Positions 379-43,806 of a stretch of DNA of 43,806 nucleotides are shown piece by piece. Below the pieces are notes generated by a model. It was not told the origin of the DNA and did not search any database. It was given only the letters and a program-made list of their open reading frames with translations. The DNA is from Clostridia bacterium (lineage in GTDB: Bacteria > Bacillota_A > Clostridia > Oscillospirales > CAG-272). Both the position numbers and the translations under genes were made by a program. Location of the stretch: contig JAFTRQ010000079.1 of the NCBI GenBank assembly GCA_017462125.1, positions 1 to 43,806 of the forward strand, written 5' to 3'. The stretch's first letter is position 1. Each line of letters starts with the position of its first letter.

Positions 379-753
379 TCACTTCTCCCGACAGAATAAC
401 ACAATTGCTTTAGAAGTAAATTCGGCAGTTCCGTCGCCATACTTGTCGATGTTCTTCTTGAATCGCTCGTCGGCAACATACATCTTGCCAAGTCCTGCAA
501 GAATCTCGTCTGTGCAGGTGTAGTAGTTGTCAGTGATGTACGCCTGAAGCTTGGCTACAAGCACCTGCGCCTCGTCTGAATCGGCACTCGCACCGCTGTC
601 CTTGCACACGGCAAACTCGGCAAAGATAGCCATTAAGCCTTCGTTTGCTTCCGCCCACTTTTCTTTTGTGTAATTCTTCGTTTTCTGTTCGTGCTCGCGG
701 TAGGCGGCAGTTTCGCGCCAACGTTCGCAGGCTTCGGTTTCGTAGTTTTTCAT
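379..753 (-). CDS. stand-alone TipAS antibiotic-recognition domain protein
   Basis: The 124-residue product matches the TipAS domain, normally the C-terminal ligand-binding half of MerR-type regulators such as TipAL, where it traps thiopeptide-like drugs. Recognisable landmarks are the charged N-terminal helix (WRETAAYREHEQKTKNY), the segment EKWAEANEGLMAIFAEF and the highly conserved DNYYTCTDEILAGLG..MYVADERFKKNIDKYG..GTAEF in the C-terminal half. No helix-turn-helix is present, so it cannot act as a DNA-binding activator by itself; it may sequester a drug or be a remnant of a larger regulator. Its ATG overlaps the stop of the Nudix gene by four bases (ATGA), which indicates translational coupling. 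The truncated deformylase follows directly. Confidence 0.8.
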   Translation of the reverse strand: MKNYETEACERWRETAAYREHEQKTKNYTKEKWAEANEGLMAIFAEFAVCKDSGASADSDEAQVLVAKLQAYITDNYYTCTDEILAGLGKMYVADERFKKNIDKYGDGTAEFTSKAIVLFCREK

Positions 754-1139
754 TTACATACCTCGCAAATTCTTGCAAGTATTTCTTCATCTGCCGGGCA
801 GAAGTCGTAGTTTGGGATCTCGCTGGGCGTGATCCACCTAATATCGTTATGCTCCAGCTTCTGCGGTTCTCCCTTGGCAATAGTGTCATTGAACAGCGTC
901 AGATGCACCGTCAAATCGGGATATTCGTGTACGACATCCATGAATACGTCACCAACCGACAGCGTCACGGAAAGCTCTTCTTTGCACTCACGAACGAGAG
1001 CCTGCTCTTTTGTTTCTCCCGGTTCAACCTTGCCGCCAACGAACTCCCACAAAAGCCCTCTCGCTTTATGCGCCGGGCGTTGGCAGATCATGAATTTATC
1101 GCCCTGCCATATAAGGGCGGCTACTACTTCAGTTATCAT
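750..1139 (-). CDS. Nudix hydrolase, MutT-like
   Basis: The 129-residue protein is a typical small Nudix enzyme that would hydrolyse a nucleoside diphosphate-X substrate, possibly oxidised dNTPs in the cytoplasm. The Nudix box spans about residues 36-58: Gly36, Glu42, then Arg50-Glu51 and Glu54-Glu55 are present, while the usual late glycine of the box is serine (EELSV). The N-terminal TEVVAALIWQGDKFMICQR strand pattern and WEFVGGKVEPGE are MutT-like. The start overlaps the stop of a tiny upstream frame (ATGA), and its own stop overlaps the TipAS start. Exact substrate cannot be read from sequence. Confidence 0.9.
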   Translation of the reverse strand: MITEVVAALIWQGDKFMICQRPAHKARGLLWEFVGGKVEPGETKEQALVRECKEELSVTLSVGDVFMDVVHEYPDLTVHLTLFNDTIAKGEPQKLEHNDIRWITPSEIPNYDFCPADEEILARICEVCK

Positions 1140-1204
1140 ATTTCCTCAACGTCAATCTTCTTCAAATATTCATAAGTTCCATCGTAGAACTTACATCCTC
1201 TCAT
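1136..1204 (-). CDS. 22-codon frame upstream of the Nudix gene, remnant or leader peptide
   Basis: A 22-residue frame (starts MRGCKFYDG, ends KKIDVEEI) ends in a TGA that overlaps the Nudix ATG in an ATGA. I do not recognise it. The tight overlap suggests either a coupled leader peptide or the C-terminal scrap of a longer gene lost when this region was rearranged; there is no clear ribosome binding site before its ATG. Confidence 0.3.
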   Translation of the reverse strand: MRGCKFYDGTYEYLKKIDVEEI

Positions 1205-1273
1205 ATTTTCCTATTTTTTCTTGGAGATACGTGTTTTCAAGCTTGCTTTTATAGTATTCAAGGTGTTAAGCTT

Positions 1274-1434
1274 TCATGTCACAGACACTACGATCAACAT
1301 CATATCGTCAATAAAGCTCATATCCTCATCGGATATGGGGGATTCATCGACTTTTTTCTGTAAATAATACAGTTTTTATCAGGGTACTCAAAAATATCAT
1401 CGGATATACACTCATAATATACCGCAAAGCTCAT
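1274..1434 (-). CDS. small fourth gene of the RyR-CARF operon, joined by a candidate -1 frameshift
   Basis: Its ATG (1434-1432) overlaps the TGA of the CARF nuclease gene by four bases, so it is translationally coupled and co-transcribed. The zero frame gives 38 residues (MSFAVYYECISDDIFEYPDK...) ending at 1318. At codons 26-28 the mRNA reads AGA AAA AAG, which contains the classic slippery heptamer A AAA AAG (1351-1357). A -1 slip there continues as VDESPISDEDMSFIDDMML... to a stop at 1274-1276 and gives a 53-residue acidic protein with a hydrophobic C-terminal end. A 7-bp hairpin (CATATCC / GGATATG) lies 13 bases downstream. I recognise no family. A sequencing or assembly error in the A6 run would produce the same picture and is the main alternative. 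Confidence 0.5.
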
Positions 1435-2669
1435 TTATCTTTCCACAAAGAGGACAGAGCTTGCCCCAAATCATGATCGGATATTCGGTAAATGTTATCA
1501 ATATGGATGATCCCCATCTCCTGCATCCGCGCTTTCAGATGAGACACGTTGCTGTTTGACTCCAAAAGGCTCGAGGTTACCAATACCCGCTTTGCATACT
1601 TACCGCCAAAACGTTTTGCCACTGTATTGAGCTTATAGAGCTCGTCCACCTCCACAAATCCGTTCTTGCAGGATATAAACACGGGTATCGCCCCTTTCAT
1701 TGCCATAACGTCTATCTCATTGATGACGTTGACAGGTTTTTTATTGTCCTCGTCATCCCATCGGATAAAAACTCCTACTTGCACGTCATGGTACATCGGT
1801 CTTTGATCTTCATCCAACAAGCCGCAAATTCTGGAAGCAATAAACCGTTCCAGCACCTGCCCCGCTACGGTGAGGCAACGCTTTACCCTCTCGTTTTTGA
1901 ATTTTACCGATACGGTCTCCCCGTTCTTACGGTAGCGTATCAAGCCGTATGAATGCAGATCCTGCAGCAGCTCTTCTCTTATCCAATACCAATCCTTTCC
2001 CTTGCCAAACGCTTTATTGACATACTGCGAATCATAAGATACGGACAAAGAATCCTGTTTGCCGAATGCATCGCACACCCTTCCGATAATGCCGACCTGT
2101 GTGTTCCAAGCACCGGGATCCTGCTTGCAAACGCTCCACAATTTTTCAATGTCATCTAAAAATTCGTCGTCAAACTCCCAATTGTCGGAATGGTCCTGCG
2201 CTCTCGAATCTGTACCCGAGCTGCCTCCGTAAATTGCGATATTATCTTCAATGGATATGTCAAAGCTCTTGACCGAAGCTATCTTGCCGTCTGCATCGCA
2301 ATCGCTGACCGTATCGTTGACGAAATTGAAGCGATGACACTGTACTTTTTCTCCGTGCCGCTCCTTAAGCATACCAACAGCCACCAAGTAAAGCTCGTCT
2401 CCACCCGTCAGATCAAAGATACAGTCTCCCATCTGCGCAATGACTCTTTCAAGCCCCTCCACTATATTCGAAAGATTGGTTTTGTTGATCACGGAATAGA
2501 AAAGCTTTGTGTTGATCCCGTTCGCTCTGAGCACGTCTTGGTATGTATCACAGCTCTTTATCATCTTTTCCCTGTTGTCTCCCACCAAAACGACTCGATC
2601 GGGCTGACACATCATAGCACCCGCAATATTCTCTATTGCGTTTTTATCATAAAATTCAATAATCGTCAT
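1431..2669 (-). CDS. CARF-domain PD-(D/E)XK nuclease, Card1/Can2-like (DUF1887)
   Basis: The 412-residue protein has the Card1/Can2 layout. The N-terminal half is a Rossmann-like CARF domain with VVLVGDN at about 26-32 and the signature CIFDLTGGDELYLVAVG at about 83-99, which in the family contacts a cyclic oligoadenylate. A winged-helix-like linker (about 170-265) follows. The C-terminal nuclease has ERF (274), NEID (Asp320) and ISCK (Lys335), that is, the Asp...(S)xK core of a PD-(D/E)XK site, then KRFGGKYAKRVLV. Characterised relatives are metal-dependent nucleases switched on by cA4 in type III CRISPR systems. Here no cas gene is in view; the gene follows the RyR membrane protein by 15 bases. 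I chose ATG 2669, which AGAGGA precedes at good spacing, over the TTG one codon upstream. Activation by a cyclic nucleotide is inference from the family. Confidence 0.85.
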   Translation of the reverse strand: MTIIEFYDKNAIENIAGAMMCQPDRVVLVGDNREKMIKSCDTYQDVLRANGINTKLFYSVINKTNLSNIVEGLERVIAQMGDCIFDLTGGDELYLVAVGMLKERHGEKVQCHRFNFVNDTVSDCDADGKIASVKSFDISIEDNIAIYGGSSGTDSRAQDHSDNWEFDDEFLDDIEKLWSVCKQDPGAWNTQVGIIGRVCDAFGKQDSLSVSYDSQYVNKAFGKGKDWYWIREELLQDLHSYGLIRYRKNGETVSVKFKNERVKRCLTVAGQVLERFIASRICGLLDEDQRPMYHDVQVGVFIRWDDEDNKKPVNVINEIDVMAMKGAIPVFISCKNGFVEVDELYKLNTVAKRFGGKYAKRVLVTSSLLESNSNVSHLKARMQEMGIIHIDNIYRISDHDLGQALSSLWKDK

Positions 2670-2684
2670 CAAAGGATCCTCTTA

Positions 2685-4985
2685 TCAAATATCATTTATT
2701 ATCTTCGAATCCGGCAGCTGTTCAACCGACACAAGATCCGAATGCATTTTATTTTTACGGTCCGGGCTTTCACAGAAGATCCAACCCTCGGTTCTCATAT
2801 AAGCATTCCAACGGATATGCTCTATTTCCGCAATGGCACGAAGCTCGCTGACAAACACAGCATCATTTTTATAATTTTCGGTGCAAAGCTTGTCTTCGAT
2901 CTCCCTTGCGTATTCTTTCGCCGCTTTTATCGTTGACGTTCTCTCGAAAATTTGCCTGTATCGTTCATCAAGCGCCAAGGAATGATCTTGCACACGAAGT
3001 CTTCTGTGGATCGCCTTGGAAATAGAGGAATAGAAATTATAGGCATTAAAGTTGAACGTGTTTTCAGAGCATCTCTTAAGCAGCTCCGTTTCATTGCTGA
3101 TCGGCATCTCTTCGTAATCGGCCCTATCACTCTTTCGGATTTTATTCCACTCTGTTTTAAGCCAAGAGAAATGCTCCTCAAAGCCCGATTTTATGAGTGA
3201 ATTGTCTGCGGAAAACGTGTTTACGGAATAGTAGCTCTTATGGTCACCAATCACCTTGACGTCCCTGCTCTCAATCAGCTTCTTCGTCTCAATGTTGCGG
3301 ATGATCGCCGTTATTCCCGTTTTCAATCCAAGTCTTCCGCGCGCACGCTCAACAACACTGCAGGTGCTTGCATTTAACGTGTCGTCCCCGAGGCAAATAA
3401 AGAAATGTCTCTTATTTTCCGCCTCCTTGGTAATTTCCTTTACAAACTCATTCGTTCCCACAAGAATGCGCTTGAAGGTTATACGGTATCTCATATCATC
3501 CGAATTATTACAGGAGCAGTCGGTCCGAAGCGCAGGGTATGCTGCCTTGAATCTCGACTCCGCAGTTTCATCCTGGTCTATAACGGTAAGGTCTATCTTA
3601 TATCCCGGGAGCTGGCAGTACCACAAGAGCGCTTTCATAAATTCTTCTCCATGCTTACCGTAACCGATGACCGTTGCGTATACGGTTTTCAAGGCTCCGT
3701 CATCGTTGGCATCGGCAAACAGCTCTATCCCTTGCTCATAAAGATACTGATACACAAGAAACCGGATTTCATTGATATGGATGCCCGTTATCTTCAAGCC
3801 TTTTGTTCTGATAGCATCCAATCTGCACCTTTTAGCCTTTTCAAGACATTCTTTTGCCTTATCAACCTGTGAAGAGGCCAAAAGCCTTTGCACATCGCCA
3901 AGATACTGACGCATTTTAGCATTATACTTATCGGTTTTACGCTCATCCTTGCGGCTCAGAAAGCCTGCGCCTGCAGACAAAACGGTGTCCTCTTCCCCAT
4001 CCTTCGGTGCAGACAGTATTTTTTTAAAATACTTTTTCCTTTTTTTCGTTTCTTCTGCTTTTTCAGAGCCCTCTTTACCCTCGTCCGCACTTCCGTCAAA
4101 ATACTCCATACGGAAATACTTTTCCGCACAAATCGTCTCATCGCTGAAGACTTTAGACACATCGGAATACCGCTTCATAAAGAGCTCACATTCAAAAGAA
4201 TCCGAAAAGAGGAAAAGCTTCGTGTGATCGTCGTCATAATTTTCTATTACGTACTTTGCGTGGCGCAGCTTCTCGCTGTCATCCTCGGAAATAAGATAGA
4301 AATTTATTTTTCTTTTGATAAGCCCTCTGAATTTTATAGAGGTCAAATCCTTTTTGAAAAGGATGGCATGCAGCTCCTTTGCGCTTTGTACCAAGTCAAT
4401 ATGCGCCTCTTCGTTTTTATCAATAATGTCCGCAAAGATGATCAGAGGCTTTCTGATTCTCACTCCGGTCTCTCTGCGCCTGTTATACCTTTCAACTATA
4501 CTTGTTGCCAAGGCAAGCGTTCTCTCATTCAGCTCCGAGAATGCGTGTGTTTCTCTCCATTTAAGCACCCAATTCTTAAAGTAATACCATATTCTGACAA
4601 AAACAGACAGTATGGCTGTAAAGGTGGTGAGAGGCGCAACTATAAAGAGAAAGACCATCCATACACGGTAAAAGCCTTCCGGAATAAATTGAAAGGTTAT
4701 GACATTATTTCCGCTCTCGGTTTTGAAAATATCAAAGCCGTCATCCACCACGAACAGCCTTATGGAATGCTGTATGGAGCGCAGTATGGCTGTGACAGCA
4801 TTATTTTCCGTCTTCAAATAAACCGGCAAAAGGGCAACGAACGAGGCAACCGCGATGCCTACGATCGCCCAGATAATGGGAGTAAACAGCCTGTCCCTTT
4901 TCGGCTTCAGTATGACGATACTCCATATGATGACGGTCACTAAAAAAATAACAATTGAAATCAAAAACGCATAATCGTTGCCCAT
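2685..4985 (-). CDS. membrane protein with Rossmann/TrkA-like domains and C-terminal RyR domain
   Basis: The 766-residue protein starts with two membrane helices (about 6-26 and 34-57), a short extracytoplasmic stretch and a third helix (about 106-132). Cytoplasmic parts follow: a first alpha/beta domain (about 178-280; KPLIIFADI, INFYLISEDD, TKLFLFSDS), a charged low-complexity linker (295-350), a helical hairpin, then a clear Rossmann domain with VIGYGKHG (439-446, GxGxxG type) and an acidic end of strand 2 (LTVIDQD). The C-terminal 50 residues are an RyR domain (IAEIEHIRWNAYMRTEGW... HSDLV). The layout resembles TrkA/RCK and CASTOR/POLLUX-type channel regulators. It may therefore gate ion flow or act as a membrane sensor or effector for a nucleotide ligand; that is inference. 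GGGGGAG precedes the ATG. It sits between the small RyR gene and the CARF nuclease, with 14-15 base gaps. Confidence 0.75.
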   Translation of the reverse strand: MGNDYAFLISIVIFLVTVIIWSIVILKPKRDRLFTPIIWAIVGIAVASFVALLPVYLKTENNAVTAILRSIQHSIRLFVVDDGFDIFKTESGNNVITFQFIPEGFYRVWMVFLFIVAPLTTFTAILSVFVRIWYYFKNWVLKWRETHAFSELNERTLALATSIVERYNRRRETGVRIRKPLIIFADIIDKNEEAHIDLVQSAKELHAILFKKDLTSIKFRGLIKRKINFYLISEDDSEKLRHAKYVIENYDDDHTKLFLFSDSFECELFMKRYSDVSKVFSDETICAEKYFRMEYFDGSADEGKEGSEKAEETKKRKKYFKKILSAPKDGEEDTVLSAGAGFLSRKDERKTDKYNAKMRQYLGDVQRLLASSQVDKAKECLEKAKRCRLDAIRTKGLKITGIHINEIRFLVYQYLYEQGIELFADANDDGALKTVYATVIGYGKHGEEFMKALLWYCQLPGYKIDLTVIDQDETAESRFKAAYPALRTDCSCNNSDDMRYRITFKRILVGTNEFVKEITKEAENKRHFFICLGDDTLNASTCSVVERARGRLGLKTGITAIIRNIETKKLIESRDVKVIGDHKSYYSVNTFSADNSLIKSGFEEHFSWLKTEWNKIRKSDRADYEEMPISNETELLKRCSENTFNFNAYNFYSSISKAIHRRLRVQDHSLALDERYRQIFERTSTIKAAKEYAREIEDKLCTENYKNDAVFVSELRAIAEIEHIRWNAYMRTEGWIFCESPDRKNKMHSDLVSVEQLPDSKIINDI

Positions 4986-4999
4986 TGCTCTCCCCCACC

Positions 5000-5281
5000 T
5001 TAAGCCTTGGTGATTTTATATCCAAGCTTGATTATAAGCTTCAACGTTCCCAAAGAGGTATCCCTGTCATACTGTTTCTCTCCTTCTGACAATTCCTCAT
5101 ATGGCACCAAGCAGGGATGACACTTTTTATCATCGTCGCGTTTTTCACCGTAAACCCATCCCTCTGCCATGCGTCCTTCAGACCATACCTCGTGAGTATT
5201 CTTGGCGATCTCCTCACTGAGCTCAAGAATCTCCTCGGGCAAAATTACGTCGTCTGTATTGATCGGTTTTGGAATATACAT
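5000..5281 (-). CDS. small RyR-domain protein
   Basis: Almost the whole 93-residue protein is one RyR domain (the ryanodine-receptor repeat, PF02026 type): NTHEVWSEGRMAEGWVYG at about 28-45, then a charged turn, HPCLVPYEELSEGEKQYDRDT and a closing amphipathic helix TLKLIIKLGYKI. It has no membrane segment or second domain, so it is probably a soluble cytoplasmic partner or decoy of the RyR domain on the next gene's product. It is the first gene of the operon, with AAGGAGG five bases before ATG and a strong promoter at 5329-5357. Comparative genomics has tied bacterial RyR domains to nucleotide-sensing conflict systems; the ligand is not known to me. Confidence 0.85.
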   Translation of the reverse strand: MYIPKPINTDDVILPEEILELSEEIAKNTHEVWSEGRMAEGWVYGEKRDDDKKCHPCLVPYEELSEGEKQYDRDTSLGTLKLIIKLGYKITKA

Positions 5282-5328
5282 AATTACCTCCTTAAATATA
5301 CCTTTCTCGACATATTTTGTTTGTTTTC

Positions 5329-5357
5329 ATTATAGCATATAACCGCGCATATTTCAA
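5329..5357 (-). promoter_or_regulatory. sigma-A promoter of the RyR-CARF operon
   Basis: On the minus strand TTGAAA (5357-5352) and a perfect TATAAT (5334-5329) are separated by 17 bases. Predicted start near 5322 leaves a leader of about 40 bases to the AAGGAGG and ATG of the first RyR gene. No operator-like repeat is obvious, so basal expression is likely. Confidence 0.75.
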
Positions 5358-5522
5358 GCCCGTAAAAAATAACATTTCAAATTTTAACACTATCAAAGCA
5401 TACCGGAAGCAGAACTGTGGGGCAGCTTGATTTATTGAGCCGCTTCAGGTGTAAACAAATTGTAAATACAGTCATCGCGCTCAAATATTTACAAAAACAT
5501 ACAAGTATTTTGGCCGTCTATC

Positions 5523-5531
5523 TGTTATAAT
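5523..5531 (+). promoter_or_regulatory. extended -10 promoter of the GH99-like gene
   Basis: TGTTATAAT is an extended -10 (TGnTATAAT); no good -35 hexamer sits 17 bases upstream, which suggests activator help. The rest of the 5358-5520 gap shows no gene, riboswitch or repeat that I can recognise. Confidence 0.55.
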
Positions 5532-5582
5532 ATTGGTATTCTTACAGACTTTTCAATTCAAATCATGAAAGGAAACAGGAAT

Positions 5583-8500
5583 ATGAAAACATATCAAAAG
5601 CTTTTATCCCTTATATTAGCTCTTGTGATGCTGGTTTCTACCGTATCATCCTGCGGTGGGCATGCGACCGAGGAAGGCTCTGATAACGCTTCGACAAGCA
5701 CGGAAAGCGAAGAAGCCTCCACTTCTCCCACAGATGAGCCTGTTGAGGAGCCCTCGCTTGATGCATATTACATCATCGAGGCTGTCGCACAGAACGGACG
5801 AAACGGTCTTGCAAACGGCTGGAACTACGACAACCGCTTTGACCTGACCAATGCTACCGGTCTTGACAGCAGCACCGTTTATGACAATTCCGACGAAAAG
5901 TTTTACCGCTTGATCCGTGATTTTGATGCTGAGAACGACGGTGTTCTCAAGCTTGAAATGATCATAAACGCGCAGAGCAGCGATGAAGGCATTTACATCG
6001 CGATGTGCGACGGCGATGACAATAAGCTGTTCTATCTGACCGTCAAAGGCGGCAAATGGGTATTCATCGGCGACGGTGAGATCGCAACACCCGTATCGGT
6101 GGTCAATGGCGGACAGACCGAAAAGTTCGGCATTGAAATGAATATCGATCTGAATCAGAATACCGCCAACGTAACGATCAACAACGTCTATTGCGGCGAG
6201 ATCAATATCCCCGACAAGGCGATCTCCCGTCTGATCCTCGGAACCAATAAAAAGGGCACGGGCACCATCGGCTTCGAATACGTCCGTTTGATGAAAAACT
6301 ATCCCATAGTGGACAGGTTCATTCTCGGTGACGTTGCGGATTATGAGGGACAAGCCCCTGCCAATTGGGAGATCACGGGAGATTTCGTGCTTGACCGCAT
6401 CAAATCCATGCGACTTTACGATATGTACAGCGTAAAGGCGGATTCCAAGGCAGGTACAGCCTCCACCGCAACAAAGCATTTTTACGAGGTCAGCGGTAAG
6501 CTGGCATTTGAGGCAATGATCCTGCTGCCTGAAAAGGTTGACGGCGCCACCGTTTCCCTGCTCTCGGGTGACGCGGCTGTGATCACGTTTGAAACACGAG
6601 ACGGTAAGATCTACGTAGGCGACGAGATGGTAAACAACTATATTGCCAACGTCTGGCAGACGCTTCACGTTGAAGCCGACACCGAGACGGGCAAGGCGGA
6701 TATCTACGTCAACGGCAAGAACCGCGCTACAGTTGATTTTGACGCATCCTTCTTGGACGGTGTGAAGATCGGCTTCTCCCCCAAGGAAGATGCCGTAATG
6801 TGGTTTGACGACGTAGAGGTCTATCCCGTAATCGAATACGAGGATTATCCCGAAGCACCTCAGGTTGCCGAATCCACCGATTACAACATCGGTATGAACG
6901 TTTGCTGGCTCTGGCGCGATCAGCAATCGGGCGAGGGTTGGGATGCAACAAGCCCCTTCTCCGAGTTTGACCCATATCTCGGCTTTTATGACGAAGGTCT
7001 CCGCGAGACCGCCGATTGGGAGCTGAAGTGGATGGCAGAGCATGGCATCGACTTCATTCATGCCTGCTGGTACTGCCCTTCTGGTGACATTCAAGCCCCC
7101 ATCAAGGAAATGCGCCACTCCTACGCCGCGCTTCACGACGGCTATATGATGGCGAAATACAGCGATTACGTTGATTTCTGCATTATGTGGGAAAACAACG
7201 GCCAGGATTGCACCTCCTTTGAGCAGTTCAGAGAATACATCTGGAATTATTGGATGGAGTATTACTTCTCCGACGAAAGATACGCCCGTCTTGACAACAA
7301 GGCTGTGCTTACCGTTTGGAATCGCTCCAACTTCGAAAAAGCGTTCGGCGGTGCGGCAGGAGCGAAAAAGGCCGTTGAGTTTATGAACAAAGAGCTCCAA
7401 AAGATCGGCTACGACGGCATTATTATCCTCGCCTCCACCCAAGGAGCGAATCCCACCGCAACCTATACACAGCTTGCAAACCTGGGCTATGACGCTACCT
7501 ACGGCTACCATTGGAATGCCAACGGCAAGGATGCCGATTATCAGATCAACTGCAACAATGCCAATATGGAAGCCTCCAAGGACATCCTGCACCACATCCC
7601 CACGGTTTCCATCGGATTTAACGACGTGGGCAGAAACGAGACCCGCGATCCTATCATCTCGGTCGAGGGACATTTGAAGGTCTGTCAGGACATCAAAAGC
7701 ATCCTTGCGGGGCTGAACACGGGAACGTGGAAGGACAACACCCTCTTTATCTCCACCTGGAACGAGTACAGCGAGGGCACCTATCTCTTCCCCACCGAAT
7801 CCACGGGCTTTGATTATCTCGAAAACATCAGAAAGACCTTCACAAACGACACAAGCGACCACTCGTCGCTCGACGTCCGCCCCACCGAGGCGCAGATCGA
7901 CAGAGTGACACACCTCTATCCCGATAACCACTCCCCCATCCGCTGGCATCAGTTTGAGAAGGCTGACACCGCCGTCTCCGAGTACAAAATCAAGGTCAAC
8001 GGCAACATCCTGGGCTTTACCTTCAATCCTCAAAAGGCTGATGACGGCGATCTGATCGTCGTTGGTGAAGCCAAGGGAAAGGGCTTTTACAGCGCATTGC
8101 GTCTCTATCACGAGTGGGACAGATTCACGGGAGACGGCGTGCTGACGCTCTACACCTATAATGAAAGCAAGCTCGTCTTCACCGTCGGAAGCAACAAGGT
8201 CATCATCGACGGCAAGGAGCAGGATCTTGGCTACACCTTCACGCTCCGTGACGGTCTGCCGCAGTTCCATCTGAAAAAGCTATGCGCGCTTCTCGGATAC
8301 AAGCTGACCGAGGACAGCACCATGATATCGATTCAAGCGGCAACCGACGAGGAATACAAGGAGCTGGGCAGTAAGATAGACAATCAATGGGAATTCAACA
8401 TCATCGGTGAATTGGAGGGCTGGAAGACACAGCAAGGCACGTCCGCGGTCAACACAGAGGGTGTTCTTACCGTTACCCCCTCGGGCTCCGATATCGCGGT

Positions 8501-9827
8501 GATTCACGACGTCAGCTTCAATGCAAGCAAATATAACGTGATCCGCGTTGGTGTCAAGTATAATCCTACCGTCACGTCCCAGACCGCTTCCCTCTTCTTT
8601 AAAACAAAGGCTTCTACCTCCTACAGTGCTGACAAGTGCATCAACGCAAAATACAACACCGCAGGCAAGGGTGAGGGCGACACGGTTGAGGTGGTATTTA
8701 TCCTCAGCGACAACGTCAACTTTAACGGCACCATCACAGGCATCCGCATCGACCCCTATACGGGAACCGTTCCCTTTGATATCGACTACATCCGCTGTGA
8801 ATATGACGAAAAGCTGTCTGCCGAAAACGGTATCATTGAAGTAGACGACGAAAACCAATGGTATTTTGATACCGACGGAAGCAAGGAAGGCTGGACCATC
8901 AGCAACGCAAAGTTCAAGGGCGTCTCTGACGGTGTCTATATCGGACGGGCAAGCAACTCCGACCCTGCCATCTATCACAAGGTAAGCTTCCCCGCAAGCA
9001 ACTATCAGATACTGATCGTTGGTATGAAGTACAATGCAGCCACCGCAAATCAGTCAACGCAGCTGTATTTCCGCACCTCCACAGACTCCGCGTGGAACGA
9101 AGCCAAGGGCCTTAAGGGTAGCTCAAGAATTCCCGATGACGTCAAGGAGGGCGACACCTATCAGGTCGTATTCGATCTGACAAGCTGCAGTACCTGGACG
9201 GGCACCATTACCGAGATCCGTATCGACCCCTTCAATATGATCGAGGAGTTCCAAATCGACTACATTCGCTTCTACAAAAAGGCGGGGGATACAACCGACC
9301 CCAATGCCGCAAAGCCTACCAAGCCCACCGAGGCTGTGATCACTGACCCCAAAAAGCTTCCCGAGGGCATCACCGTCAGCAGTGAAAGCTCGGGTACGGT
9401 GACGGTCGTTGCAGACCCCACAGAGCCCACCAAGAACGTTTTCAAGGTCACCTGCACCGATTCCTCAAGCGAAAAATACACCTATCTCAACGTCTTTATG
9501 CAATTTGAGGCAGGCAAGACCTACACCGTCACCTACAAGCTGATGCCCCTTACCGATATGAACGGAGATAAATTCTCCGGCACGATCATCGGAGGCAACT
9601 TCATATACGGAACGACGGCAAACGCCTCCCTTTCCAATCACACCTTTGACGCAGGCGCAGACAAATCCAGCAGTGACAGCTGGATCACCGTCACGCAAAC
9701 CGTTACCGTGCCTGCAAACTACAGCGCCAACGAAAAGGACAGATTCCAGATCTGGGGCAAGTTCTCGCCCACAAGCAAGCTTGGAATCGACTTCCTTGTA
9801 AAGGACATCAGCATTACGGTCAACTGA
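5583..9827 (+). CDS. giant lipoprotein with GH99/WbsX-like catalytic domain and repeated binding modules
   Basis: The 1414-residue product starts at ATG 5583 (AAAGGA nine bases before) and not at 5565, because the signal peptide MKTYQKLLSLILALVMLVS with lipobox-like VSSC starts there. After a Ser/Thr/Glu-rich linker come two concanavalin-like beta domains (about 40-260 and 265-430). The GH99/WbsX-type domain spans about 435-765: DPYLGFYDEG, WMAEHGIDFI, CIMWENNG and STWNEYSEGTYLFPTE, the conserved acidic residues of that group. A copper-amine-oxidase-N1-like module (about 800-920), two tandem ~145-residue repeats (about 935-1080, 1092-1236, both start NQW.F and end with a IDPxx..PFxIDYIR-like strand) and a C-terminal CBM-like domain (about 1256-1414) follow. 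It is probably a surface glycosidase on alpha-mannan-like or other polysaccharide; the substrate is unproven. Confidence 0.8.
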   Translation: MKTYQKLLSLILALVMLVSTVSSCGGHATEEGSDNASTSTESEEASTSPTDEPVEEPSLDAYYIIEAVAQNGRNGLANGWNYDNRFDLTNATGLDSSTVYDNSDEKFYRLIRDFDAENDGVLKLEMIINAQSSDEGIYIAMCDGDDNKLFYLTVKGGKWVFIGDGEIATPVSVVNGGQTEKFGIEMNIDLNQNTANVTINNVYCGEINIPDKAISRLILGTNKKGTGTIGFEYVRLMKNYPIVDRFILGDVADYEGQAPANWEITGDFVLDRIKSMRLYDMYSVKADSKAGTASTATKHFYEVSGKLAFEAMILLPEKVDGATVSLLSGDAAVITFETRDGKIYVGDEMVNNYIANVWQTLHVEADTETGKADIYVNGKNRATVDFDASFLDGVKIGFSPKEDAVMWFDDVEVYPVIEYEDYPEAPQVAESTDYNIGMNVCWLWRDQQSGEGWDATSPFSEFDPYLGFYDEGLRETADWELKWMAEHGIDFIHACWYCPSGDIQAPIKEMRHSYAALHDGYMMAKYSDYVDFCIMWENNGQDCTSFEQFREYIWNYWMEYYFSDERYARLDNKAVLTVWNRSNFEKAFGGAAGAKKAVEFMNKELQKIGYDGIIILASTQGANPTATYTQLANLGYDATYGYHWNANGKDADYQINCNNANMEASKDILHHIPTVSIGFNDVGRNETRDPIISVEGHLKVCQDIKSILAGLNTGTWKDNTLFISTWNEYSEGTYLFPTESTGFDYLENIRKTFTNDTSDHSSLDVRPTEAQIDRVTHLYPDNHSPIRWHQFEKADTAVSEYKIKVNGNILGFTFNPQKADDGDLIVVGEAKGKGFYSALRLYHEWDRFTGDGVLTLYTYNESKLVFTVGSNKVIIDGKEQDLGYTFTLRDGLPQFHLKKLCALLGYKLTEDSTMISIQAATDEEYKELGSKIDNQWEFNIIGELEGWKTQQGTSAVNTEGVLTVTPSGSDIAVIHDVSFNASKYNVIRVGVKYNPTVTSQTASLFFKTKASTSYSADKCINAKYNTAGKGEGDTVEVVFILSDNVNFNGTITGIRIDPYTGTVPFDIDYIRCEYDEKLSAENGIIEVDDENQWYFDTDGSKEGWTISNAKFKGVSDGVYIGRASNSDPAIYHKVSFPASNYQILIVGMKYNAATANQSTQLYFRTSTDSAWNEAKGLKGSSRIPDDVKEGDTYQVVFDLTSCSTWTGTITEIRIDPFNMIEEFQIDYIRFYKKAGDTTDPNAAKPTKPTEAVITDPKKLPEGITVSSESSGTVTVVADPTEPTKNVFKVTCTDSSSEKYTYLNVFMQFEAGKTYTVTYKLMPLTDMNGDKFSGTIIGGNFIYGTTANASLSNHTFDAGADKSSSDSWITVTQTVTVPANYSANEKDRFQIWGKFSPTSKLGIDFLVKDISITVN

Positions 9828-9930
9828 TCCGAAAGATCCGAACCGAAAATTATATCGCCGCAAAACGGCAGACAGGAACATAGCGTGAAAGTTACTTCTC
9901 ACTTGTAGGTAATTTAACTGCTTCACGCGC

Positions 9931-10030
9931 GAATTTTGCCTTGCCGGCAAAATTCATCGATTACTATTTGTGCCGCCGCGGGGTTCCCCGAAGCGAACGA
10001 AGTGAGTTTTGGGGGTTCCCGCATGGCGGC
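9931..10030 (+). repeat. two hairpins between the GH99-like gene and the esterase gene
   Basis: A perfect 10-bp hairpin (GAATTTTGCC / GGCAAAATTC, 9931-9955) without T-run is followed by a GC-rich imperfect stem (GCCGCC...GCGGG at 9972-9982 with CCCGC..GGCGGC at 10018-10030) whose loop holds AGCGAACGAAGTGAG. The second stem ends four bases before the esterase ribosome binding site. Such elements can stabilise transcript ends or tune translation. Confidence 0.5.
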
Positions 10031-10045
10031 GGAATGGAGATTAAA

Positions 10046-10885
10046 ATGAAAAAAGCAAACATCATTATTCTGGCAGGTCAGTCCAACGCAGTTGGCGTAG
10101 GCTTCACAAAATATCTGCCCAAAACCTTCAACAGCGACGTCATCACGAAGATCCGCGCGGGATACGATAAGATCCTCATCAGCTATATGTCACACGACAT
10201 TGTCAGCGACGGATTCGTAAAGACAAGCGTCAATTGCACCGAGAGAAGCAAGGATACCTTAGGTCCTGAGGTGGGAATCGCAAAGGCGCTTGATGAAAAG
10301 TATCCCAACGAGGAGTTTTTCATCATCAAATGTGCCTACGGCGGCACCAATATGTGCAACGATTGGCGCTCTCCCTCAAGCGGTGTTCCCTTTTGCGAGG
10401 AGCTGACGGCCGAGCCCGCAAAGGCAATTGCATCTCCCGAATTCCGTTTTCCGGGTTGGTGCTACAACACCTTCATTAAGCTGCTTCGAAGCAGTCTGGA
10501 TGAGCTTTGTCAGAAGGGCTATGAGCCCCGCGTGATCGGCTTTTGCTGGATGCAGGGAGAGAGCGACGCCTGCTCTATCGAAACCCTTGAGCCCTATATC
10601 TTCCGCTATGACTGTATGCTCAAGGACCTTCGCGCGGCATTCCCGAATCTGTTTGATGAATGCACCTACGTAGACGCGGGTGTCTCAACGATCTGGGCGC
10701 ATTATGAAAAAATGAACGAATACAAAAAGGAGTATGCTCTGGCGCAGGGTTATCGATACCTTGATACCGTCGGCGCAGGTCTCGACACACTGACCGAGCC
10801 CGAGGAAGCCCCCGACACCTATCATTACGATTGCGCAAGCACCGTCAAGCTCGGCGAGCTGTTCGCTGAAAATATCACGCTGTAA
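10046..10885 (+). CDS. SGNH hydrolase, sialate-O-acetylesterase (SASA) type carbohydrate esterase
   Basis: The 279-residue protein carries the SASA/CE6-type SGNH motifs: IIILAGQSNAVG at the start (nucleophile Ser), a central CAYGGTNM block, GFCWMQGESDA with the conserved QGE, and DTYHYD near the C-terminus providing the Asp/His pair. It would remove acetyl or similar groups from sugars. No signal peptide is seen, so it acts inside the cell on imported oligosaccharides. ATG 10046 is preceded by TGGAG at seven bases; the longer frame from 9941 runs through the hairpin repeat and is unlikely to be translated. It follows the GH99-like gene by about 220 bases. Confidence 0.85.
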   Translation: MKKANIIILAGQSNAVGVGFTKYLPKTFNSDVITKIRAGYDKILISYMSHDIVSDGFVKTSVNCTERSKDTLGPEVGIAKALDEKYPNEEFFIIKCAYGGTNMCNDWRSPSSGVPFCEELTAEPAKAIASPEFRFPGWCYNTFIKLLRSSLDELCQKGYEPRVIGFCWMQGESDACSIETLEPYIFRYDCMLKDLRAAFPNLFDECTYVDAGVSTIWAHYEKMNEYKKEYALAQGYRYLDTVGAGLDTLTEPEEAPDTYHYDCASTVKLGELFAENITL

Positions 10886-40021: not shown

Positions 40022-40963
40022 ATGGCTACAAACACACAATCCCGCAAATGGATGCTCACCATCAACAATCCGCAAACCTGCGAGCTTGATCATGAACGCA
40101 TCCGAGAGATTTTAAGTCTGTTTTCCCCGGATTATTTTTGTATGGCAGATGAAATTGCCACAACGGGAACCTACCATACACATATATTCCTATATTCCGC
40201 ATCCCCCATCCGCTTCAACACCGTTAAAAACCGTTTTCCCACGGCGCATATCGAGAAGGCTCTCGGTACGGCCCAGGAAAACAAGGAGTACATACAGAAA
40301 AGCGGAAAGTGGGAGGAAACCGAGAAAGCAGAAACGTCGGTAGAAGGTACGTTTTACGAATTTGGAGTGATGCCAAGTGAGTCTGAGGAACGAGATCCGA
40401 AGATGCACAAGCTGCTCCAAAAGGTAAAGGATGGGATGACCACTACCGAGATCATTGAAGAAACCCCATCCTTCGCGTTCAAGTCAAGGGACATTGACAC
40501 GCTTCGAGAGAAGCTTCTGTATGAGCGATATCAATCCGAGAACCGAAATGTTAAAGTAACGTACCTGTTCGGTGCATCGGGAACGGGCAAGACAAGCGGC
40601 ATCTATCAGAAGCACCCTGCAACCGACATCTGCCGTATCACCGATTACGGCGGCAGAAACGGAATCCGCTTTGATTCCTATCACGGACATGACGTGCTGG
40701 TGTTGGAGGAATTTAATTCGCAGATTCCCATTGAATCGCTGCTGAACATTCTTGACCAATATCCGCTGATACTCCCCGCGAGATACAATGACAGAGTAGC
40801 GTGCTTTACGCACGTATACATTACGTCCAACCTCTCGCTCGGTGAACAGTATCGCGCAGAGCAAGAGTCCCGTCCCGAAACATGGAACGCGCTTTTAAGA
40901 CGCATTGACAAAGTATATGCCTATCACGCCGACGGTACGGTGGATGAGGTCGATTTCAAGTAA
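40022..40963 (+). CDS. CRESS-type replication initiator (HUH endonuclease plus SF3 helicase)
   Basis: The 313-residue protein has the three HUH motifs of eukaryotic CRESS-DNA-virus-like Reps: MLTINNP (11-17), THIF with HTH (52-54) and YIQK with catalytic Tyr90 and Lys93. An SF3 helicase follows: Walker A GASGTGKT (184-191), Walker B VLVLEE (225-230) and motif C ITSN (267-270). It would nick the adjacent TAGTATTAC loop and unwind the element. Such Reps are known from Firmicutes pCRESS plasmids and integrated relatives. AAGGAGG lies before ATG. Confidence 0.92.
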   Translation: MATNTQSRKWMLTINNPQTCELDHERIREILSLFSPDYFCMADEIATTGTYHTHIFLYSASPIRFNTVKNRFPTAHIEKALGTAQENKEYIQKSGKWEETEKAETSVEGTFYEFGVMPSESEERDPKMHKLLQKVKDGMTTTEIIEETPSFAFKSRDIDTLREKLLYERYQSENRNVKVTYLFGASGTGKTSGIYQKHPATDICRITDYGGRNGIRFDSYHGHDVLVLEEFNSQIPIESLLNILDQYPLILPARYNDRVACFTHVYITSNLSLGEQYRAEQESRPETWNALLRRIDKVYAYHADGTVDEVDFK

Positions 40964-42557: not shown

Positions 42558-42586
42558 TTGAGAAAAAGAGTATTATGTGCTATAAT
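42558..42586 (+). promoter_or_regulatory. integrase promoter inside an inverted repeat
   Basis: TTGAGA - 17 bases - TATAAT, with TGC forming an extended -10. Arms GAGAAAAAGAG (42560-42570) and CTCTTTTTCTC (42605-42615) bracket the -10 and the start site, a layout that suits a repressor or Xis/Int site. Confidence 0.7.
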
Positions 42587-42637
42587 TTATTATGTAGCAA
42601 TGTGCTCTTTTTCTCTCTGCGAGAAAGGAGTTCAATA

Positions 42638-43806
42638 TTGGGAAAAAATCTCAAAGGCAAAGACTGCGGTAAGGGTATCTATCAAAGAAAGGACGGGTTA
42701 TACAGTGCGCGGTTTGTCGATAAAACAGGCAAACGGCACGAAAGGTATTTCCAGACGATTCCCGAGGCAAAGAACTGGATAGAAGAAGCAAAATATGCGG
42801 ACAAGCACGATGATGTTTTTGTCGCAACCGACACAACTGTAGATGAGTGGTTCAACTTTTGGATTGAAAATATCGTTGGGGATTTAGCTCCCAATACTCT
42901 CCGAAATTACCGAGAGCGATATTTCCATAACATACAGCCTGTGATGGGAAAGATGATGATAGCGAACGTAAAACCGATGCATTGTAAAAAGGTGTTCATT
43001 CAGATGGATGCCGACTATGCAGGCTCTACGATCCGTCAAGCATATATCACGATGGGTACGATGTTTAAGGCGGCTAAAATGAACGACCTTATAGCAAAGC
43101 ACCCAATGGATGGAGTACGGTTCACAAAGCCCGTTCGTGCAACGGACGATATTAAGTTTCTCACCCGTGAAGATCAGCGCAAATTTCTTGAAACGGCACG
43201 TCGCTCTCATAACTATAACCAATATGCATTGATCCTGGAAACCGGATTGCGTACAGGAGAAATGATCGGTCTAACGTGGGATGCGATAGATTTTGAGAAA
43301 CGCACGCTGACGGTGAATAAGACGTTAGAGTTCCGTCATGCTCAACATTTTTGGAGAGCAGGACCGCCCAAGACACAGCAAAGTTATCGTACCATTCCTC
43401 TGACGGATCGTGCATACGAAATCCTCAAAGGGATATGGGATAACCGAGCAGGGCGAAAGGAATCTCCTATACTGTCTGAAACGCTGGAGTATATCGATAG
43501 GCGAACAGGAGTCACATCCAAGCTCGTGATGCGAGATCTTGTGTTTATCAACTATCGCACCGGCGCACCCGCCAAAAACAGCTCTTATGATACCCACCTC
43601 TACAAGCTCTGCGACGAAGCAGGGATCGAACGCTTTTGTATGCACGCTTTACGCCATACATACGCCACGCGGGCAATCGAAAGCGGAATGCAGCCAAAGG
43701 TGCTGCAAAAACTACTGGGACACGCCAGTATCAAAACAACTATGGATAGGTACGTTCACGTAACGACCGATTCTTTAGATCAAGCTGTAAGACAATTTCA
43801 GCAAAA
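42638..43806 (+). CDS. int: tyrosine recombinase (Tn916-like integrase), open at window end
   Basis: Translation from TTG 42638 (AAAGGAG eight bases before) gives 389 residues without a stop before the window ends. An N-terminal AP2-like arm-binding part ([17 protein letters not shown]) precedes a core-binding domain ([11 protein letters not shown]...) and the catalytic domain: Arg205 (ETGLRTGEM), His336/Arg339 (HALRHT), His near 361 (LLGHAS) and nucleophile Tyr372 (MDRYVHV). The catalytic set is complete; only a few C-terminal residues should be missing. No ATG start in frame is as well placed. It would mediate integration and, with Xis, excision of the element. Confidence 0.93.

Follow-up and report, generated by a model that had tools for sequence, protein, structure and literature searches.

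The window, a stretch of 43,806 nucleotides from a Clostridia bacterium (contig JAFTRQ010000079.1 of GenBank assembly GCA_017462125.1), carries on its minus strand a three-gene operon that encodes, in this order, a soluble RyR (ryanodine receptor) domain protein, a membrane protein that we call TMR and that ends in a second, truncated RyR domain, and a CARF-PDDEXK nuclease. Since relatives of the RyR gene often adjoin TIR immune genes, a signal-driven antiviral or stress circuit is probable, and we suggest, at a probability of roughly 0.5, that the operon works independently of CRISPR (clustered regularly interspaced short palindromic repeats) as an effector module in bacterial immunity based on nucleotides or in closely related stress signaling. 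The genes are tightly packed: the soluble RyR gene (93 residues, positions 5000-5281) is followed after 14 bp by the TMR gene (766 residues, 2685-4985), which is separated from the nuclease gene (1431-2672) by 12 bp if the latter starts at TTG 2672 (413 residues) and by 15 bp if it starts at ATG 2669 (412 residues).

The unit recurs in other genomes. A protein search in which the top 7995 word matches were scored returned at least 38 TMR proteins, the window's included; for the nuclease, the number was 893 proteins. When genomes were scanned with the nuclease profile, 136 stretches were confirmed, the best 80 of which were taken as loci; all 80 come from records named Clostridia, Bacilli, or families within these, mostly metagenome-assembled genomes (MAGs) from gut or rumen. 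We counted as an operon the unbroken series of genes that includes the nuclease gene and lies on its strand, with gaps of at most 300 bp, using the gene calls of a simple open reading frame (ORF) script; L002, whose TMR match stems from its RyR gene alone, was not counted as a TMR locus, and L025 and L026, two contigs of one genome that carry the same genes, were both counted. TMR shares the operon of 20 of the 80 nuclease loci and a full RyR gene that of 10, eight of which also have TMR, and L005 repeats the RyR-TMR-nuclease order of the window. Seen from the nuclease side, the association is not one of chance. Across 391 genomes from the class of G001, the center of our sample, 17 have TMR, 27 have PF02026 (the RyR family), and 47 match the nuclease profile; a full-length soluble RyR occurs together with the nuclease in 7 of the 11 genomes that have such an RyR (G001 included) versus 1.3 expected. 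The distances between CARF proteins parallel those between TMR proteins (19 pairs, L026 and the TMR fragment L038 being left out; Mantel r of 0.39, with 1 of 5000 permutations as high), a correlation that may reflect shared ancestry. That the genes are chance neighbors with no functional link has next to no probability: TMR is missing from the fetched stretch at 60 of the 80 nuclease loci, so that the genes do not always go together, yet conserved synteny contradicts this explanation, with 20 and 10 shared operons out of 80, gaps of 12 to 15 bp, the same order at L005, and a fusion at L119 that is described below.

RyR is a shared module, and TIR is its commonest partner in our sample. Soluble RyR genes (PF02026 above 100 bits) were collected from 391 genomes of the class and 398 of the phylum, two overlapping samples that yielded 12 distinct genes. 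Pfam TIR_2 lies about 40 to 1150 bp from eight of them (G303, G265, G353, G149, G217, G719, G223, and G142), divergently transcribed from RyR in G223; the count is 8 of 11 without G001, which had been chosen for carrying the operon. The 12 RyR genomes hold 27 TIR domains in total, for which uniform placement predicts 0.06 neighbors within 2.5 kb, an expectation that is too small because it ignores the clustering of defense genes. In six genomes (G303, G353, G149, G217, G719, and G223), the RyR-adjacent TIR is the sole TIR found. The four RyR genes with no nearby TIR include that of G001, whose operon resembles the window's, and that of G283, where a 1060-residue protein matching the TMR profile lies near RyR and no TIR was found. 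In G155 (L187) and G167 (L184), a MatE transporter gene precedes RyR in the place of TMR or TIR.

A CARF- or Card1-type nuclease adjoins RyR in only 3 of the 12 cases (G001, G265, and G142). The nuclease part of G265, which belongs to a fusion, scores 20 bits with Card1_endonuc, below the cut-off of 26.4, and 45.6 bits with the nuclease profile, and the 1507-residue protein of G142 scores 21.8 bits with Card1_endonuc, also below the cut-off. The original prediction had held that the idea of an independent system would fail if most RyR genes lacked the CARF gene; taken literally, most of them do, yet 10 of the 80 nuclease loci and one fusion bring the two together.

The link to TIR extends beyond the 12 soluble RyR genes, which were counted by Pfam TIR_2; elsewhere, TIR was called with a seven-sequence profile, confirmed by Pfam for five genes in nuclease loci and for L110, L119, L121, L186, and L188, and called by our own profile plus Pfam TIR_2 positions at L213, L225, L226, and L227. 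A TIR gene is present in 7 of the 26 fetched stretches around further, longer or weaker RyR proteins and, as a control, in 5 of the 80 nuclease loci (in the operon itself in 4, all Pfam confirmed). It lies in the same run as TMR in 4 of 17 TMR stretches: L109, ordered TMR-RyR-TIR; L110, where TMR and TIR overlap at their ends; L121, whose TMR is broken into two reading frames; and L119. At L119 (in G265, positions 6780-10856), a single chain of 1359 residues joins a kinase (1.2e-19), a region that aligns with positions 301-641 of the 653-position TMR profile (80.8 bits), and a Card1-type nuclease end, and is followed by RyR and TIR. L041 has the order nuclease-TMR-TIR, L205 the order cyclase-RyR-TIR, and L189 and L190 an RyR-ended protein followed by RyR, TIR, and a leucine-rich repeat gene; the RyR ends of the latter two proteins, which the TMR profile does not match, score 26.9 and 25.5 bits, just below the cut-off. 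On a plasmid of Priestia aryabhattai (NZ_CP128553.1, L191), an RyR gene (50.5% identity) lies directly behind an annotated adenylate/guanylate cyclase, with an annotated Pycsar effector upstream and, on the opposite strand, a TIR gene.

The RyR domains themselves point to a nucleotide ligand. The first gene of the operon had been read as a soluble RyR domain, and Pfam bears this out (PF02026, 117.6 bits against a cut-off of 27.4, E value of 2.9e-34). According to the available text of a 2026 preprint (PMC13232231), phage RyR proteins destroy or soak up ADP-ribose (ADPR) immune signals; RyDEP cleaves 2'/3' cyclic ADPR (cADPR), its ligand contacts and catalytic dyad comprise H75, W78, H100, and D117, and six of eight phage homologs bind 2'/3'cADPR. 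The same tetrad is found, with the identical spacing of 3/22/17, in the soluble RyR of the window (H30/W33/H55/D72) and at the C terminus of TMR (H723/W726/H748/D765). H30, W33, and D72 occur in every one of the 24 distinct soluble RyR proteins of our collection, which includes that of the window, and 52 of 56 aligned TMR sequences, again counting the window's, have the whole tetrad, the exceptions being P0005 and P0028, gapped at all four positions, P0014, gapped at the last, and L079, which reads SWHN. The protein terminates zero to two residues past the Asp in 35 of the 52 tetrad-complete TMR sequences, so that TMR is without the rest of the fourth helix, the helix that in RyDEP helps to form the dimer interface (available text of PMC13232231). 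What sets the window apart from RyDEP is the setting: there a phage evasion gene, here a bacterial operon that also encodes a membrane protein and a nuclease and in which one of the two RyR copies is truncated and fused to the membrane protein.

The window RyR also aligns to residues 851-939 of animal RyR1, with 69.6 bits for that repeat, and adenine nucleotides sit in the cleft of the corresponding Repeat12 (R12) of the animal receptor (PMC12627627, available part). The membrane part of TMR is RCK-like in our model and unlike that of the ryanodine receptor. The available text of PMC13232231 covers the phage RyR proteins and their R12 homology and mentions a bacterial PF02026 clade; it contains no bacterial RyR operon. 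Among the matches listed in our literature searches, and barring this preprint, no paper joins a bacterial RyR with CARF, RCK, or a bacterial TIR operon, nor does any in the complete listing for RyR together with CARF; we make no claim that the connection is unpublished. In a phage collection, 184 records contain stretches resembling the window RyR (67 of Salmonella, 39 of Pseudomonas, and 25 of Arthrobacter phages), which are candidates for RyDEP-like evasion proteins.

In our structural model, TMR consists of a three-helix membrane part, two RCK domains in tandem, and a truncated RyR end. The membrane part, placed at residues 1-140 (4566-4985) by model and hydropathy, has hydrophobic segments at 1-30, 32-59, and 107-133 and modeled helices at 2-26, 36-59, and 103-140; an additional modeled helix at 63-79 carries an RLFxxD motif, in which F78 is conserved in 48 and D81 in 47 of the 56 aligned sequences. 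A first RCK-like domain is predicted at about residues 145-295 (4101-4553), where VIA alignments to KtrA, TrkA, and DMI1 start at residues 144-148, and a second, RCK/TrkA-N-like domain at residues 432-595 (3201-3692), with GYGKHG at 441-446. The C-terminal half RyR (residues 716-766, 2688-2840), after which the protein ends one residue past D765, scores 14.8 bits with Pfam in the window protein alone, under the cut-off of 27.4, and the TMR family profile matches an RyR chimera of the PDB with an E value of 5.2e-11. The original prediction was right about the membrane segments, the glycine-rich motif, and the RyR-like end of this 766-residue protein; its single Rossmann domain understates the two RCK domains of the model. 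The TrkA_N match of the window TMR is below the Pfam cut-off; a relative passes the cut-offs of both TrkA_N (1e-14) and RyR (4.1e-18) and adjoins a DUF4062 gene (L206). The DUF4062 proteins are described as TIR-like NADases in the available part of PMC13174449. TMR had no match in plasmids at 1e-5, and one TMR-like match (27% identity) came from an unannotated fecal "phage" record.

RCK domains bind NAD(H), ATP, ADP, or Ca2+, and the closest structural matches of TMR are the gating rings of K+ transport systems. TMR resembles RCK-gated transporters and channels such as KtrA, GsuK, MthK, and CASTOR/DMI1 in the two RCK-type domains predicted after its membrane helices, and differs from them in being without the canonical K+ filter, in its C-terminal RyR, and in its subthreshold TrkA_N score. 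The main rival to an immune function is homeostasis, in which TMR would be an RCK-regulated ion transporter or energy sensor and RyR and the nuclease stress parts with no role in immunity. Besides the gating-ring matches, this explanation can draw on the genes of similar size (about 450, 442, and 320 residues; matched by size only) that adjoin distant TMR-like proteins at L112, L114, L116, L120, and L122 in the absence of TIR and CARF, on the YbjN genes of some CARF operons, and on sigma-like genes recognized by eye. We nevertheless find it rather unlikely, given that TIR lies beside RyR in 8 of 12 cases and shares its run with TMR in 4 of 17 TMR stretches, that the RyR residues match those of an immune-signal enzyme, RyDEP, and that a nuclease partner, in one case fused, would be odd for ion homeostasis.

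The nuclease is of the CARF type that the original prediction had recognized (PADLOC CARF4--CARF_PDDEXK, 4.8e-30; PF09002 Card1_endonuc, 2.6e-7, over the cut-off), and the Asp320 and Lys335 that it had called intact are present in all 83 aligned sequences, the window's counted. The same holds for E274, E318, and S333, and E343 is present in 82 of the 83, the six residues lying in a PDDEXK domain at about residues 260-412 (1434-1892). The Glu of the ExK motif is replaced by Ser in 83 of 83 aligned nucleases, and E343 may stand in for it. In the CARF domain (about residues 1-150, 2220-2669), the putative ligand site is acidic (D8, D31, and TGG-D91-E92): position 92 is acidic in 81 of the 83 sequences and position 8 is Asp in 80, position 31 being Asp in 43. 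The cA4 (cyclic tetraadenylate)-contacting S19, T42, and K99 of Can2 correspond to D8, D31, and E92 in a weak alignment (13.2 bits) in which D8 falls one residue outside the block, and the fourth contact, Y118, lies outside the alignment. As judged from this comparison, the CARF ligand site is altered, with three of the four Can2 cA4-contacting positions acidic. The nearest fold match is VC1899, an orphan of the DUF1887 group with no type III CRISPR that has been reported as not regulated by cA4. The window protein thus shares the CARF and PDDEXK folds with Can2, Card1, and VC1899 and differs from this group in its acidic cA4 site, its Ser in the place of the ExK Glu, its near-invariant Glu343, and a window in which no CRISPR locus was seen. 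Among viral contigs, a search for nuclease relatives returned one stretch, unconfirmed.

We found no CRISPR-like repeats in the window with a script that looks for exact 22-mers spaced by 50-94 bp in at least three copies, in agreement with the absence of CRISPR stated in the original prediction. Cas10 was surveyed in the genomes of 30 relatives, representing 30 of the 80 loci and consisting of incomplete MAGs. PF22335 was detected in 5 of the 30, over the cut-off in 4, and gave no match at an E value of 0.001 in the other 25; the four genomes over the cut-off comprise two with Cas10/Cmr2 over the NCBIfam cut-off, one with a weak Csm1 (26.4 versus 170 bits), and one with a GGDEF protein, PF22335 not being Cas10 specific since it also matches in an Escherichia coli control. 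A type III CRISPR locus nearby as the source of the signal was rejected, there being no repeats in the window and Cas10 in just 2 of the 30 relatives. That the nuclease is a displaced type III effector answering cA4 from a distant Cas10, with RyR and TMR incidental, is very improbable in our view: its fold and family are those of Can2 and Card1, and two of the 30 nuclease-bearing genomes have a Cas10 over the NCBIfam cut-off with a weak third, but 25 of these incomplete MAGs are without a PF22335 match, the three cA4-contact positions are acidic, and the closest fold match is itself reported as independent of cA4. The acidic site and the scarcity of Cas10 disfavor a cyclic oligoadenylate, and the signal of this CARF nuclease family is probably another one.

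The acidic site could also favor control by a protein over control by a cyclic oligoadenylate, as would be expected of a guard or toxin-antitoxin system in which RyR and TMR hold the nuclease inactive until phage factors remove an ADPR signal or bind RyR. The L119 fusion, which joins TMR-like and nuclease parts in one chain, and the RyR stretches in the 184 phage records would fit such a system. We hold it to be distinctly improbable, since neither RyR nor TMR accompanies most nuclease genes in the fetched stretches and no obligate antitoxin is therefore visible.

Our preferred reading remains an effector module driven by a nucleotide signal. The coupling to TIR, the tetrad of ADPR contacts, and the DUF4062 neighbor at L206 together point to a ligand derived from NAD. 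For the ligand, the gating, and the role in defense, we infer the following scheme. Both RyR domains would bind an ADPR-type nucleotide that originates from NAD+, and the TIR or TIR-like enzyme that generates it would be encoded elsewhere in this genome, outside the window. Binding at the RyR end of TMR would be relayed through the RCK domains to the membrane part, which would open or change shape and so disturb the membrane. The soluble RyR would pair or compete with the truncated domain of TMR, or remove the signal, and thereby serve as an off-switch; as a full-length neighbor, it may complete the RyR site of TMR or compete for it. The CARF nuclease would be a second arm that cuts nucleic acid once activated by a ligand other than cA4 or by a partner protein. 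In its full form, an immune channel gated by an RyR domain that senses a TIR-made cyclic or derivatized ADPR behind RCK domains, with a free RyR that either quenches the site or completes it and with a CARF nuclease that acts in parallel, its pocket changed from cyclic oligoadenylate to another, possibly NAD-derived, ligand, this scheme is tentative, and we regard it as possible rather than probable. The stand-alone circuit of the original prediction, with RyR parts as sensors and the membrane protein and nuclease as two arms, fits the comparative data; its function in defense stays inferred.

Several observations weigh against this reading. No TIR matched in the window and no cyclase was found among the ORFs tested, so the source of the signal is unseen; none of the nine other window ORFs checked by Pfam is a defense gene, and RyR and TMR had no match among the PADLOC models. 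Of the 80 nuclease loci, whose fetched stretches in some cases stop at contig ends, 60 show no TMR there and 70 no RyR, from which it appears that the nuclease works elsewhere in their absence, and nine distant TMR-like loci (L112-L118, L120, and L122) have neither CARF nor TIR. The position of H55 is His in only 9 of the 24 soluble RyR proteins, being Thr in 14 and Ser in 1. None of the eight phage RyDEP homologs assayed cleaved the signals, according to the available text of PMC13232231, and a conserved tetrad is therefore no proof of catalysis. Foldseek gave no match to TMR at an E value of 0.001 (the best, GsuK, reached 0.041), the RCK assignment resting on VIA alignments of Foldseek candidates, and no canonical TxGYG filter lies between the membrane helices, where helix 63-79 leads into RLFVVDDGF; to call TMR a channel is accordingly a model-based guess.

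Some TIR signaling systems have effectors of the caspase type, from which those of the operon differ. The operon resembles Thoeris and TIR systems in that members of its RyR and TMR families adjoin TIR genes and in the logic of an effector coupled to a signal, and it differs in having no TIR gene of its own and in effectors unlike SIR2-SLOG (PMC11204291, available part). An RyR domain known from phage evasion proteins is here part of a bacterial operon and is also built into a channel-like membrane protein. Because RyR sits in the operon, has TIR within 1.2 kb in 8 of 12 cases, and is built into TMR, the gating of an RyR-bearing membrane protein by an ADPR-type signal is directly testable in bacteria. 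Our analysis further points out a CARF nuclease family that probably answers to a signal other than a cyclic oligoadenylate and puts forward a candidate CRISPR-free defense module in gut Clostridia. If the scheme is true, an RyR-gated immune channel would be the bacterial counterpart of the disputed link between cADPR and the ryanodine receptor in animals.

Other families accompany the nuclease. A double-AAA M41 (FtsH-like) family is matched in the operon of 18 of the 80 nuclease loci, with TMR there as well in 12 cases, and a YbjN-like gene in that of 8. The former proteins have about 1150 residues, with two AAA domains and an FtsH-like M41 peptidase (profile E values up to 1e-50), and occur at L006, L013, L014, L016-L018, L025, L026, L034-L036, L042, L043, L045, L050, L063, L066, and L079. 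At L035, L045, L052, and L054, genes for a sigma-like protein of about 272 residues and a zinc-finger anti-sigma-like protein of about 85 residues, both recognized by eye, are paired in nuclease operons; the pair of L045 gave no Pfam match over the cut-off.

Upstream of the operon, at 5329-5357 on the minus strand, lies a sigma-70-like promoter (TTGAAA-17-TATAAT with an extended -10 TG) that fits 11 of 12 consensus positions and is identified by consensus match only. It ranks among the top two of the 22 matches in the range 600-5700, where shuffled sequences gave 9.6 ± 3.0, and the promoter of the original prediction is thereby retained. The coupled small fourth protein proposed in that prediction had to be given up: the ORF that overlaps the stop codon of the nuclease gene (1318-1434, minus strand) runs for 38 codons before a stop, and no ORF of at least 50 residues exists there on that strand. 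Downstream of the operon, Pfam identifies a NUDIX gene (750-1139, minus strand, 3.7e-23) and a gene for a TipAS antibiotic-recognition domain (379-753, minus strand, 1e-38), and the contig around the operon carries sugar-metabolism genes. Near the other end of the window, a replication protein with a Viral_Rep domain (40022-40960, plus strand; PF02407, 6.6e-10) and a phage-type integrase (42575-43804, plus strand; 2.9e-30) look like an integrated mobile element.

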